Below are positions 3-10,102 of a stretch of DNA of 64,000 nt, piece by piece (position 1 is the stretch's first letter; each line of letters begins with the position of its first letter). The notes under the pieces were generated by a model, which ran no database searches, was not told where the DNA came from, and was given only the letters and a program-made list of their open reading frames with translations. Source of the DNA: Oscillospiraceae bacterium (GTDB lineage Bacteria; Bacillota; Clostridia; Oscillospirales; Acutalibacteraceae); NCBI GenBank assembly GCA_031268095.1, contig JAIRXU010000046.1:1-64000 (forward strand), in the 5' to 3' direction. The position numbers and the translations under genes were made by a program.

Positions 3-320
3 GTCAAGAAATATTTCCCCATGACGGAAGTGGACACGCTGCAATGGGGGAAGGACCATGGGTGGACGTGGAACAAAACCCCGTGGGCGGATGCATGGGA
101 AGAGGCGAAGCATTATGAATCGGCGAAATCGCCGCAAAGCGACAGCTTGATAGCGCGTTACCAAGACAATGCGCACTGGTGGTGGCTTCGGTCGCCGGGC
201 GACGGTCCTGACTTCGCCGCGTACGTCGACAATGATGGCACTGTCGACCTCAATGGCCACCTTGTCGACAATAGTTCGGGCGGCATCCGCCCCGCGTTGT
301 GGTTAAATCTCGAATCTTAA
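3..320 (+). CDS. DUF6273-like / C-type-lectin-like domain protein, C-terminal fragment (5' truncated by window edge)
   Basis: Frame stays open upstream of the listed ATG (VKKYFPM...) so the gene starts outside the window; C-terminus HWWWLRSPGDGPDFAAYVDNDGTVDLNGHLVDNSSGGIRPALWLNLES is typical of DUF6273-type domains. Confidence 0.75.
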   Translation, partial: VKKYFPMTEVDTLQWGKDHGWTWNKTPWADAWEEAKHYESAKSPQSDSLIARYQDNAHWWWLRSPGDGPDFAAYVDNDGTVDLNGHLVDNSSGGIRPALWLNLES

Positions 321-420
321 CTCTTTAAATCGCCAATCCGGTACTCAATCAAAACGTTGCGAAGCAACGCAATCAGCCCCGCCGCAGCGGGTTCGCCGCA
401 GGCGGGCGAACTCAAAAAAC

Positions 421-469
421 AAAAAACGCGTTCCCCGTCCGGCCGGACGAGGGGCGCGCCGCTTTTTTT
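421..469 (+). terminator. Rho-independent terminator
   Basis: CGCGTTCCCCGTCCGG/CCGGACGAGGGGCGCG hairpin (427-458, one mismatch, two GU) followed by T7 at 463-469. Confidence 0.8.
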
Positions 470-1973: not shown

Positions 1974-2687
1974 ATGGAAATGGTCAAATCTTTGCTGCGG
2001 GAGGCTTGGGCGGACGAACAGTTCCGGCTGACGGTCAAAACGCTGCTGCGGCTGGGAATGGCGGCGCTTTGCGGCGGAATCATCGGCTATGAACGCGAGC
2101 ACTCCCACCGCCCCGCCGGCCTGCGGACCCACATCCTGGTGGCGGTGGGCTCCGCGCTGGTGATGTGCACCGCGTCGTTCATCTTCGCCGGCGAAAATAC
2201 GGACCCCACCCGCATGGGCGCGCAGGTCATCAGCGGCATCGGTTTTCTTGGCGCGGGGACCATCCTGCGGGAGGGCTTCAGCGTCAAGGGCCTCACCACG
2301 GCGGCCAGCCTCTGGGCGGTGTCGTGCATCGGTCTGGCGGTGGGAAGCGGATTCTGGGGCGGCGCCCTGGTCGCGACCGGCGTGATCTATCTCACCCTCA
2401 ACGCCCTGAAGAAAGTGGTTTTCAGCCGGACGACGGGCCGGACCCTGTTTGTGGGCGTGACGGAGGCCAATTATGCGGATAAAATTTCGACTATCCTGAA
2501 AAATTGCGGCGCGAAATTGCGGACAATGGAAATTCTCTTGCCGGAGGATAGCGAAGGCGAGAAATTCAGCCGGGAAACCAGCGTTGTCCTGAAACTCTTC
2601 GTCTTCATTCCTTCGGAACGGGAGTTGGCGCTGATCAAAGAAAATTTGATTGGTCTGCAGGGGGTGAATGACTTTTATGTCGAATAA
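1974..2687 (+). CDS. MgtC/SapB family protein
   Basis: RLGMAALCGGIIGYEREHSHRPAGLRTHILVAVGSALVMCTASFIF...RMGAQVISGIGFLGAGTILREGFSVKGLTTAASLWAVSCIGLAVG; classic MgtC motif set. Start moved to ATG 1974 after AGAAAGG. Confidence 0.93.
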   Translation: MEMVKSLLREAWADEQFRLTVKTLLRLGMAALCGGIIGYEREHSHRPAGLRTHILVAVGSALVMCTASFIFAGENTDPTRMGAQVISGIGFLGAGTILREGFSVKGLTTAASLWAVSCIGLAVGSGFWGGALVATGVIYLTLNALKKVVFSRTTGRTLFVGVTEANYADKISTILKNCGAKLRTMEILLPEDSEGEKFSRETSVVLKLFVFIPSERELALIKENLIGLQGVNDFYVE

Positions 2688-3300
2688 CGCCAGCTTTTTT
2701 GCGCTGCTCTCGCGCATGAAATACATTCCCCGCTGGTCGTTGATGCGCAACGCCTCGGCGGAAAATCTGAGCGAACATACCTTGGAGACCGCGGTTTTAG
2801 CCCATTGCCTCGTGATGCTCCACAACGAGCGTTTCGCGGGCGCCGCCGGCCCCCTCTCCGCCGAGCGCGCCGCCACCCTGGCCCTGTTTCATGACGTCCC
2901 CGAAGTGTTGACAGGGGACTTGCCTACGCCCGTAAAGTACCACAGCGGCGGCGTTCGGGAAGCTTACGCCAAAGTGGAGAAGAGCGCCTGCGACACCCTC
3001 CTATCCTTCCTCCCGCCGGATCTGCGTCCCCATTACGCCGTCCTGCTGCGCCCCGCGGAAGAAGAACAGGGCCTCTGGCGCTACGTCAAAGCGGCAGACA
3101 AACTCAGCGCCCTGATTAAGTGCATCGAGGAACAGAAGGCCGGGAGCCGGGAGTTCCTCCGCGCGGAGGAGGCGACGCTGGCTGCCCTGCGCGCCATGCG
3201 GCTGCCAGAAGTGGACTGTTTTCTGACGGAATTTTTATCCGCCTATGCCGAGCCCCTGGACGGGATGATGGAGCGGCGAAAAGATGGCGCGGCCCCTTGA
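2677..3300 (+). CDS. YfbR-like 5'-deoxynucleotidase (HD domain)
   Basis: ALLSRMKYIPRWSLMRNASAENLSEHTLETAVLAHCL...ALFHDVPEVLTGDLPTPVKY; YfbR HD pattern. Start M4 of the supplied ORF. Confidence 0.9.
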   Translation: MSNNASFFALLSRMKYIPRWSLMRNASAENLSEHTLETAVLAHCLVMLHNERFAGAAGPLSAERAATLALFHDVPEVLTGDLPTPVKYHSGGVREAYAKVEKSACDTLLSFLPPDLRPHYAVLLRPAEEEQGLWRYVKAADKLSALIKCIEEQKAGSREFLRAEEATLAALRAMRLPEVDCFLTEFLSAYAEPLDGMMERRKDGAAP

Positions 3301-3356
3301 AAGCCTCCTCAGCGTCCGCATACTCGTCTCTCTCATACTGATTCCTCTATCCCCCC

Positions 3357-3386
3357 TTGACAAACCACCTGTCCATAGAGTATCAT
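3357..3386 (+). promoter_or_regulatory. sigma-A-type promoter upstream of yebC
   Basis: TTGACA (3357-3362) - 18 bp - TATCAT (3381-3386). Confidence 0.6.
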
Positions 3387-3422
3387 ACTAGTTATTCTTA
3401 TTTAGAATGGAGCGTAAACCAT

Positions 3423-4157
3423 ATGTCCGGACACTCCAAATGGAGCACCATCAAGCGAAAGAAAGAGAAGACCGACAGCCAGCGCGCGAAAATCTTCACG
3501 AAGATCGGACGGGAGATTGCCGTCGCCGTGCGGGAAGGGGGGCCGGATCCGGCCTCGAACTCCAAACTCAGCGGTATCATCGCCAAGGCTAAGGCAAACA
3601 ACATTCCAAACGACAACATCGACCGCATCATCAAGAAGGCGGCGGGGGAGACCGGCGGCGCGCATTACGAGGAGATTGTCTATGAAGGCTACGGCCCCTC
3701 CGGCGTTGCCGTCATCGTGGAGACCCTCACTGACAACCGCAACCGCACTGCCGGCGAAATGCGGCATTATTTCGACAAATACGGCGGCAATCTCGGGCAG
3801 CAGAACTGCGTCTCCTTCCTCTTTACCCGCCAGGGCGTCCTGGCCATTGAGGCGGAAGACGTGGACGAGGACGCCCTGATGGAAGCCGCGCTGGAAGCTG
3901 GCGCCTCTGATTTTCTCAGCGAGGAAGACGTTTTCGTCGTGCGCACGGAACCCAACGATCTGGGCGTGGTGCGGGAGGCGCTGGAGGCTGCCGGATACCG
4001 CTTCCTATCCGCCGAAGTGGAGTACATCCCCTCCGCCACCACCCCCCTGGCCTCGGAGGACGATGTCAAGAACATGACCCGCATGCTGGAAATGTTCGAG
4101 GAAAACGACGACGTCCAGGCCGTTTGGCATAACTGGGAAGCCCCGGAGGAAGAGTAA
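3423..4157 (+). CDS. yebC: YebC/PmpR family DNA-binding regulatory protein
   Basis: MSGHSKWSTIKRKKEKTDSQRAKIFTKIGREIAVAVREGGPDPASNSKLSGIIAKAKANNIPNDNIDRIIKKAAGE; start at ATG 3423, not the upstream TTG, which overlaps the -35 box. Confidence 0.97.
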   Translation: MSGHSKWSTIKRKKEKTDSQRAKIFTKIGREIAVAVREGGPDPASNSKLSGIIAKAKANNIPNDNIDRIIKKAAGETGGAHYEEIVYEGYGPSGVAVIVETLTDNRNRTAGEMRHYFDKYGGNLGQQNCVSFLFTRQGVLAIEAEDVDEDALMEAALEAGASDFLSEEDVFVVRTEPNDLGVVREALEAAGYRFLSAEVEYIPSATTPLASEDDVKNMTRMLEMFEENDDVQAVWHNWEAPEEE

Positions 4158-4402: not shown

Positions 4403-6436
4403 ATGTTTTCGATGGGGATTTTTAATAGCAGCAACAGCCGCGGGCAGGAACCAATGCACTACACCGTTTCATTCCGGTTTGTCGAGGACGGTTCTCCCGG
4501 CTCGACCTTCCACCGCATGCCCGCTACGGCGGGTTCTACCATCCGGGACTATCCGGCGGATTCCCATCCGGTGCGCGAAGGCTGGGACTTTGTGCGCCAC
4601 AGCCCGCCGGAACTGATGCGGGTGGAACAAAACGAAGTGGTGGACGTTCACTATGTCCGGTCGGTGCATACCGTGACGTTCACGGACGAAAACGGTCGGC
4701 ATCTCTCGCTGCCCGGTGCGGTGCAGCGGGTGAGGCACGGCGAGGACGCCGAACCCCCGGCCTATATCCCGCCTGCGGGTTTTATCCTGACCGGATGGGA
4801 TGGCGGCTGGCGCCGGGTGACCGAGGACCGGAGCATCCGGGCCAAAGCGGTCCCCCGCAGCTATTCTGTGATCTTTCTGGACCGGGAAGGCAAGTACATC
4901 GGCAAACCCCGGCAGGTGGAGAGCGGCGGGCAAGTGGACCCGCCCCGGGTTTGGGACGGCGCGGAAGAGACGGCTCCGGCGGAGGGCGAAACGGCCTACC
5001 GGTTGCCGGAGGGCTTCCGCTTCCTCGGGTGGAGCCGCACGACCCAGGCCGTGACGGAAGACGTGATCAGCGTGGCGCTGGTGGAGAAAATTCCGGCGGC
5101 GCCCGTCAGCCATACGATAACATTCCTCGACGAGAACGGCAGCGAGCTGGAGCGCCGGGAGGTCCTGCGGGGCGGCCCTGCGGCCCCGCCCGCCTACACG
5201 GTGGAATTCCAGGGCGTGACTTGGCCCGGCGCTGACGAACCGGTGACGGAGGACCGCACCATCCGCTGCATATTGGTGCCGAAATATTGCGAAGTGACCT
5301 TTTTCTCGCCCCTCGACGGCGGCGTCATTGAGGCGCAAAGAGTCGTCTGTGGGCAGGACGCGGTTCCTCCCGCGCCGGAGGCCGTTGCCGGACTTCTTCC
5401 CCCGGACCATGAGTTTCTGGGCTGGTACCGGAACCTTCAGTGTGTGACCGCCGATATGTGGGTTCCCGCCAATATCCGCAAGATTACCTATCATAACGTT
5501 ACATTCCTCGACGAGACCGGCGCTCCCCTGGGCGCGCCCCAGCGTGTCCGGGACCGGGAAGACGCCGTTCCGCCCGCCTATCTGCCCCTCCAGGGAGAGG
5601 GCTGGCGGCATACCGGCTGGAGCGACGCCCTCGCGTGTGTGACGGAGGACCGGACGATCCAGGCCGAGGTGGAGCGCAAAGCCTATTTCGTGACCTTCTT
5701 GGACGAGACCGGGGAAGAATTGGGCCGGACCCAAGTGTTTTTTGGCGATGATGCAGCGCCCCCCGCCGGGCTGCCCGCGCTCCCGGCCGGTTGCAAGGCC
5801 CGCCGCTGGACGGGCGACTTGGCCGACGTCCGGGAGGATCGCACCCTCACCGAAGAACTGGAATGGGAAACCTGCTATGTGGTGTTCTATGACAAAGACG
5901 GCTACGAGCTGGATGAATTGGTGGTGGAGTATGGTCGGCCGGCGGTGCCGCCTGCCTACGATCCGCCGGAAGGCTGGGAGTTCTGTCGCTGGCAGACCGC
6001 CGGGGAAGCGGAGAGCGGGGAGACGCTTCCCGGCGCGCTGGACCGGATCACCGCGGATACCAAAGTGTATGCCCAATGCGTTGCCCATGAATATGGCGTT
6101 ATTGTCCTCGACCTGCGCCCCACCACACGGCCGCCGAAGTCCTACCGCTTGGGCAAACGCCCCCACGGCGCGCGGCTGACGCTCTCGGATCTGCTGGACC
6201 TGCGAATGGATCCCCCCGCCCTCAAGCAAGATTTCACGATTCTCGTGACGCAGGACATTATCCTGGCGGTGATGGAGAACGGCATCAAAGTATTCGACCA
6301 TGAGATGGGCGAACTGGCGGCCTACCGGGTCGGCCCGGCCCAGACCGCCGTCGGCTACCTGGCGCCCATGCCTGTTCCGGTGGACGATGTGCCCTTGAAC
6401 GACGAAGACCCGGTGGACCTTCTGGCGAATGCGTAA
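4403..6436 (+). CDS. InlB B-repeat-like tandem repeat protein, no signal peptide
   Basis: About eight degenerate units of the form h-VTFLDE(N/T)G...(Q/R)V..G.DA.PPAY.P..G....GW......VTEDRTI; N-terminus MFSMGIFNSSNSRGQEPMHY lacks a secretion signal. Confidence 0.75.
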   Translation: MFSMGIFNSSNSRGQEPMHYTVSFRFVEDGSPGSTFHRMPATAGSTIRDYPADSHPVREGWDFVRHSPPELMRVEQNEVVDVHYVRSVHTVTFTDENGRHLSLPGAVQRVRHGEDAEPPAYIPPAGFILTGWDGGWRRVTEDRSIRAKAVPRSYSVIFLDREGKYIGKPRQVESGGQVDPPRVWDGAEETAPAEGETAYRLPEGFRFLGWSRTTQAVTEDVISVALVEKIPAAPVSHTITFLDENGSELERREVLRGGPAAPPAYTVEFQGVTWPGADEPVTEDRTIRCILVPKYCEVTFFSPLDGGVIEAQRVVCGQDAVPPAPEAVAGLLPPDHEFLGWYRNLQCVTADMWVPANIRKITYHNVTFLDETGAPLGAPQRVRDREDAVPPAYLPLQGEGWRHTGWSDALACVTEDRTIQAEVERKAYFVTFLDETGEELGRTQVFFGDDAAPPAGLPALPAGCKARRWTGDLADVREDRTLTEELEWETCYVVFYDKDGYELDELVVEYGRPAVPPAYDPPEGWEFCRWQTAGEAESGETLPGALDRITADTKVYAQCVAHEYGVIVLDLRPTTRPPKSYRLGKRPHGARLTLSDLLDLRMDPPALKQDFTILVTQDIILAVMENGIKVFDHEMGELAAYRVGPAQTAVGYLAPMPVPVDDVPLNDEDPVDLLANA

Positions 6437-9809: not shown

Positions 9810-10102
9810 TCCCTAGCGTGTGTTTCCTGGGGAAGCGCATGCGGGATCAAGGTATGTGCGATGATGCGGGAGGTGGCCGCCCGGGGCGCGCCGTATGGCT
9901 TGCTCTTTGTGCCGGCGGGAAATTTCCGCGGAGTATGTCCGATTCACAAACCGGGCGAAACCAAGTCTGCCCCTGGGCCGCCTCCCTTGCGGCTCTGTGC
10001 AGACGGGCGTTGGACGCAGCCTTCGGCGGACGCGGCAGAGTTGCTGCGGCCTGCGCGGGAGGTCGATCCTGCGGGAGCAGTGTTGCGCGGCGGCGTCAGC
10101 AC

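Follow-up and report, generated by a model that had tools for sequence, protein, structure and literature searches.

A probable diversity-generating retroelement variable region shared by dispersed DUF6273 genes of a Clostridia bacterium

How does a gene fragment at the very start of a contig come to end in a rigid protein scaffold interrupted by unrelated residues, and could it be the target of a diversity-generating retroelement (DGR) when neither a reverse transcriptase (RT) nor a template repeat (TR) accompanies it? The DNA analyzed here (the window) covers the opening 64 kb of contig C38 in an Oscillospiraceae genome, G000, whose assembly spans 2.56 Mb in 78 contigs and is 94% complete. 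Positions 3-320 (plus strand) hold the 3' part of a DUF6273 gene that encodes 105 aa up to a TAA stop and has lost its 5' end at the contig start. The preliminary description had read this frame and its rigid scaffold correctly, and the DUF6273-like domain that it suggested was recovered by profile search (Pfam DUF6273, E = 1.6e-7, profile positions 103-171 of 172). On its 3' side the gene is followed by ORFs with translations that look AI-2E permease-like, MgtC-like, HD-type, and YebC-like. An S10-Clostridia ribosomal leader at 9853-9958 (RF03136, 39.8 bits) very probably places the window on a Clostridia chromosome. Elsewhere in the window, a 677-aa ORF at 4403-6436 repeats "VTFLDENG..." units of about 65 aa and seemingly encodes a repeat-rich protein.

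The variable region (VR) lies at 177-293 on the plus strand, at the C-terminal end of the DUF6273 domain, a domain for which a C-type-lectin fold has been reported (PMC10743442); a single-sequence AlphaFold model of L115 reached a pLDDT of 36. The VR is homologous to the TR of a relative, G295, and is common to two further contigs of the genome, C55 and C2, with variation in adenine columns. Diversified codons at 201-206, 210-215, 222-224, 228-236, 240-242, 246-248, 252-254, 258-263, and 267-272 (plus strand) stand between constant codons free of adenine (CCT at 207, GCC/GCG at 216-221, GTC at 225, GGC at 237, GTC at 243, CTC at 249, GGC at 255, and GTC at 264), and every variable codon within 201-272 is NNY. 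The earlier account of NNY codons set in a constant scaffold thus stands, with two corrections: the TAC of its residues "AAY" is also variable, and the L of "DLNG" (CTC) belongs to the scaffold. A G+C-rich stretch at 275-297 (plus strand), the same in the three copies save one base (A/G), marks the 3' end of the VR and occupies the position of a putative IMH-like site, so named solely for its resemblance to the IMH of Bordetella phage BPP-1.

BLAST of the region against the genome returned exactly two further copies, those on C55 and C2, both C-terminal in complete DUF6273 genes. The three scaffolds are nearly base-for-base alike, and the differences fall at the NNY codons; sameness at non-adenine sites, third positions included, is nearly complete. 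Between copies, 1-4 of 38 third codon positions in the VR differ, and first and second positions differ at 8-14 each. The same pattern appears in G013, a member of the same genus with three copies, and in G124, a member of another genus with two. Between genomes, 8-13 of 38 VR third positions differ. Each genome thus has its own homogenized scaffold with diversified AAY-type sites, the outcome that one template per genome, overwriting scattered targets, would give.

An outside template came from a pattern search for all-AAY templates in 398 genomes of the family, which led to contig C11 of G295, a member of another genus. This relative carries a complete DGR in cis, and its target shares the window scaffold. 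Behind an 861-aa target (YobI-ATPase, 8e-67; DUF6273, 2.7e-30; VR at the end) come a bAvd-like gene (1e-7, under Pfam's cut-off), the TR, and a DGR-type RT with GNQTSQ and YMDD motifs (RVT_1, 7e-21). The TR sits outside any DUF6273 gene, and it has A at each of its 14 mismatches to the VR, of 117 sites compared (P = 4e-11). The gene neighbors, read from their translations, look chromosomal rather than phage.

Adenines in the TR of this other genus predict which columns vary in the window and its two copies: 24 of the 27 adenine columns vary, against 9 of the 90 others (P = 1.5e-14, a guide only since this and the other P values of these TR comparisons, that of the G295 pair included, assume independent columns). 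Put the other way, 24 of 33 varying columns fall at TR adenines (P = 3e-12 with codon positions 1 and 2 only), as do 19 of the 26 varying columns in G013 (P = 2e-10). Differences off the adenine columns are few, such as GCG/GTG and GGC/GGT. Likewise, in G124, almost every variable site of one gene (on C35) reads AAY, and 15 of the 16 differences that separate its partner on C7 from it fall at A. At TR-adenine sites the G000 copies carry A 30 times, G 22, T 19, and C 10; the presence of G, T, and C together fits an error-prone RT rather than an adenine deaminase as the source of change. Because the TR of a relative predicts the variable columns, because the scaffold is homogenized, with adenine positions diversified, within each of three genomes, and because a DGR in cis has the same scaffold, we consider it very likely that 3-320 carries a DGR variable region, an adenine-diversified DUF6273 C-terminus. 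The same grounds support the earlier proposal that this gene "is, or derives from, a DGR target."

The corresponding machinery was not found in the assembly. No DGR RT was recovered from G000 with RVT_1, with a profile of eight family DGR RTs, each with a TR/VR pair in cis, or with the G295 RT; BLAST for a TR gave the three VR copies and no fourth; and tblastn with the G295 Avd gave no match in the window or the other G000 loci examined. No matching TR or RT was found in same-genus genomes or viral contigs, and RT searches found no DGR RT in the same-genus genomes G001, G006, and G013, all of which have VR-like copies. A tblastn search of phages and plasmids with the inferred all-Asn TR peptide gave no match, possibly owing to the low-complexity filter. 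The sole RT found in G124 is UG26 (516 bits) and not of the DGR kind, so it was rejected as a source; this UG26-type gene lies at 2321-3529 (minus strand) of L087, on contig C3 of a genome that also holds an all-AAY DUF6273 gene. RTs in two phage records were likewise rejected as not of the DGR kind. DGRs are common in the family, and one of them (L095) has in cis a target with a WWLR-type C-terminus of a different scaffold. The preliminary description had set two findings jointly against a DGR origin: absence of RT and TR, which holds for the assembly, and variation away from TR adenines, which does not (24/27 against 9/90). Since the machinery is missing from the assembly, the feature is filed as a DGR variable region, that is, a target, and not as a complete DGR. 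It is an orphan VR that would be served in trans, have its machinery unassembled, or have been left after RT loss. The earlier suggestion that RT and TR lie upstream or in trans may hold, and the contig start removes the upstream side from view.

Assembly breaks crowd at VR genes, here at C38, C65, and C7 and in G013 at C76 and C23, which stop 76 and 157 bp after the VR gene. C65 and C7 (first 119 bases; L155 and L156) share an identical 119-bp end inside DUF6273 (profile 1-76), although their gene starts differ (DUF4062 in one, TM in the other); this common end points to a k-mer break in a repeat. Within DUF6273 the window starts farther along than these ends, and the missing 5' half of its gene is probably on C65 (DUF4062-DUF6273) or C7 (TM-DUF6273), a join suggested by the domain positions. 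With two 5' halves and one 3' half, the 3' end of at least one VR gene, and what follows it, must be missing.

The alternative that survives best is a relic, in which the lineage once had a DGR that diversified these genes and has since disappeared, leaving sequences that are now static. It is a sub-case of the DGR-target reading, with which its confidence overlaps, and we give it serious weight, somewhat short of an even chance. Five VR-bearing genomes have yielded no DGR RT or TR, it is unlikely that chance assembly gaps alone account for the RT gap in all four such genomes of the genus and in G124, and some off-site changes separate the G000 copies. However, scaffold third positions of the window and C55 differ at just 1 of 38, which points to homing that is recent relative to species divergence, and an RT could hide at the contig breaks where several VR genes lie (C38, C65, C7, and C76/C23 of G013).

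What the diversified domain does is suggested by the proteins that carry it. Relatives carry the VR domain as a fusion with TIR_2 (1.6e-17), with DUF4062 (1.3e-26; the DUF4062-DUF6273 gene on C65 of G000 matches at 8e-26), with a deoxyribosyltransferase/TIR-like domain (5.6e-10 for the PADLOC effector match), or with a YobI/Tmn-like NTPase (Tmn match, 2.5e-26), and they also join it to membrane and coiled-coil segments. From these effector fusions we infer the hypervariable sensor of a conflict protein, and the domain content tips the balance modestly toward a role in defense, probably antiphage. Separately, L179 and L180 (C2 and C109 of G001) have open frames, as long as 1904 aa, in which several DUF6273 domains stand in tandem. 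The same fusions bear on a second alternative, in which a phage DGR diversified a receptor-binding or decoration gene of a prophage. The DUF6273 proteins already published as DGR targets come from phages, the same scaffold occurs on phage contig L115, and relatives match PHROG 9958 and Hoc-like proteins. Nevertheless, the window copy adjoins ordinary chromosomal genes, with the S10-Clostridia leader 9.5 kb off, and copies in relatives are fused to TIR, DUF4062, and NTPase domains, which together make a prophage origin improbable.

Less probable still is that duplicated DUF6273 genes underwent ordinary diversifying selection on a binding loop, no retroelement being involved. At the protein level, many DUF6273 proteins with no known DGR show the same rigid scaffold and variable positions, and for that reason we rejected protein-level variability alone as evidence. 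The codons tell against selection, because third positions are homogenized exactly where first and second positions diversify: C2 and C55 differ at 4 of 38 third positions in the VR and at 78 of 136 upstream (Fisher P = 1e-7), with 12/38 and 14/38 differences at VR positions 1 and 2, whereas an ordinary pair of DUF6273 paralogues (L056, the sole yield of a contig search for relatives), which served as a control, differs at 22 of 39. Nor would selection explain why adenines in the TR of another genus predict the variable columns. Gene conversion among paralogues combined with point mutation is just as remote: upstream DUF6273 parts do recombine (the 119 identical bases of C65 and C7), and C38 resembles C55 in its 3' flank, but conversion would also even out the adenine-derived sites, 24 of 27 of which differ. 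The paralogues also lack the shared blocks of variable codons that would favor conversion.

Returning to the DGR-target reading, the sequence behind the VR offers a candidate homing mark. The 3' flank at 306-450 (plus strand) opens with six AATC units (the first at 306) and continues into G+C-rich hairpins; it is similar in kind to the flanks of VR genes in relatives. Clusters of AATC with G+C-rich hairpins lie directly 3' of the VR in the window, C55, C76 and C23 of G013, C7 of G124, and the G295 target. The sites, in VR genes of four genomes, are window 306-450, L158 at 6857, L202 at 10876 (minus strand), L119 at 2008, L142 at 91 (minus strand), and the VR 3' flank in L167. No such cluster was found behind the G295 TR or those ordinary DUF6273 genes of the genus that were examined; the array is missing behind C2, C54 of G013, and C35 of G124; and three other DUF6273 genes (L115, L056, and G358) are followed by AATC runs that lack such hairpins. 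We put the flank forward as a possible homing target mark because BPP-1 requires a hairpin behind its VR (PMC3240598).

Overall, three dispersed paralogues are diversified in an adenine pattern on a homogenized scaffold, and a relative has a complete chromosomal DGR. The reading that best explains these observations is that a DGR template with the scaffold TGGTGGTGGCTTCGGTCGCC... and AAY at the variable sites rewrote the hypervariable, ligand-binding end of a putative DUF6273 sensor by mutagenic retrohoming in this lineage. A single RT/TR pair would have acted in trans on several dispersed targets; it may now sit in sequence missing from the assembly or on another replicon, or may have been lost. 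The host proteins would be conflict-system receptors whose variable, C-type-lectin-like surface binds a molecule of the invader, and binding would trigger the N-terminal effector or signaling part (TIR, DUF4062, YobI/Tmn-like NTPase, deoxyribosyltransferase/TIR-like, or membrane coiled coil). More tentatively, and with more doubt than belief, we suggest that Clostridia hold a dispersed, antigen-receptor-like defense repertoire that combines varied effectors with one DUF6273 sensor, a single trans-acting DGR on another replicon or mobile element, and the AATC-hairpin as homing mark.

If true, this chromosomal Clostridia version, with dispersed receptors that share one diversified surface, would extend anticipatory immunity to a far commoner bacterial group; DGR-diversified, immune-type sensors have already been described in multicellular bacteria (PMC10907252, PMC7159879). 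The RT-less state poses the testable question of whether one DGR can serve scattered genes in trans, or how long diversified receptors outlast the RT. Dispersed chromosomal DUF6273 DGR targets in Clostridia were not found in the literature searched, where five papers name DUF6273, which is weak evidence as subscription journals were mostly outside it.

Viral sequences hold related segments of their own. IMG/VR contigs (L259-L268 and L271) encode small phage proteins of about 140-320 aa with a WWLRSPG...VRPAL segment. One phage (G406) encodes two WWLRSPG proteins with only 6 differences over 39 third positions, although its RT is not of the DGR kind. At about 6064-6790 of L270, a phage contig, a TR/VR pair has 17 adenine mismatches and no others at a DUF6273-like C-terminus.

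Among known systems, DUF6273 is a published DGR target in the Faecalibacterium phages Roos, Pioen, and Lelie (PMC11792537) and in tentaclins, which have a C-type-lectin fold (PMC10743442). These phage targets resemble the window in having a DUF6273 VR with adenine-derived diversity, and the C-type-lectin fold is reported for the phage proteins. Their RT and TR are in cis, whereas the G000 copies are chromosomal and dispersed, with no RT or TR found. BPP-1 is likewise similar in its TR/VR adenine mutagenesis and in the G+C-rich end and downstream hairpin of its target (PMC3240598), but it has a single phage target (Mtd) and a complete cassette in cis, and the window hairpins have other loops and an AATC array.

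Finally, the DGR antigen sensors of multicellular bacteria, such as Thiohalocapsa PB-PSB1 (PMC10907252), and the MoxR-vWA ternary systems (PMC7159879) match the layout seen in the relatives, a C-terminal variable lectin domain combined with TIR, NTPase, or conflict domains, and trans action on dispersed targets was likewise inferred for them (PMC10907252, PMC7159879). Those sensors use another lectin-fold family (FGE-sulfatase-like; PMC7159879) in other organisms that have the RT in the genome; here the family is DUF6273, the hosts are Clostridia, and the RT is missing from the assembly.
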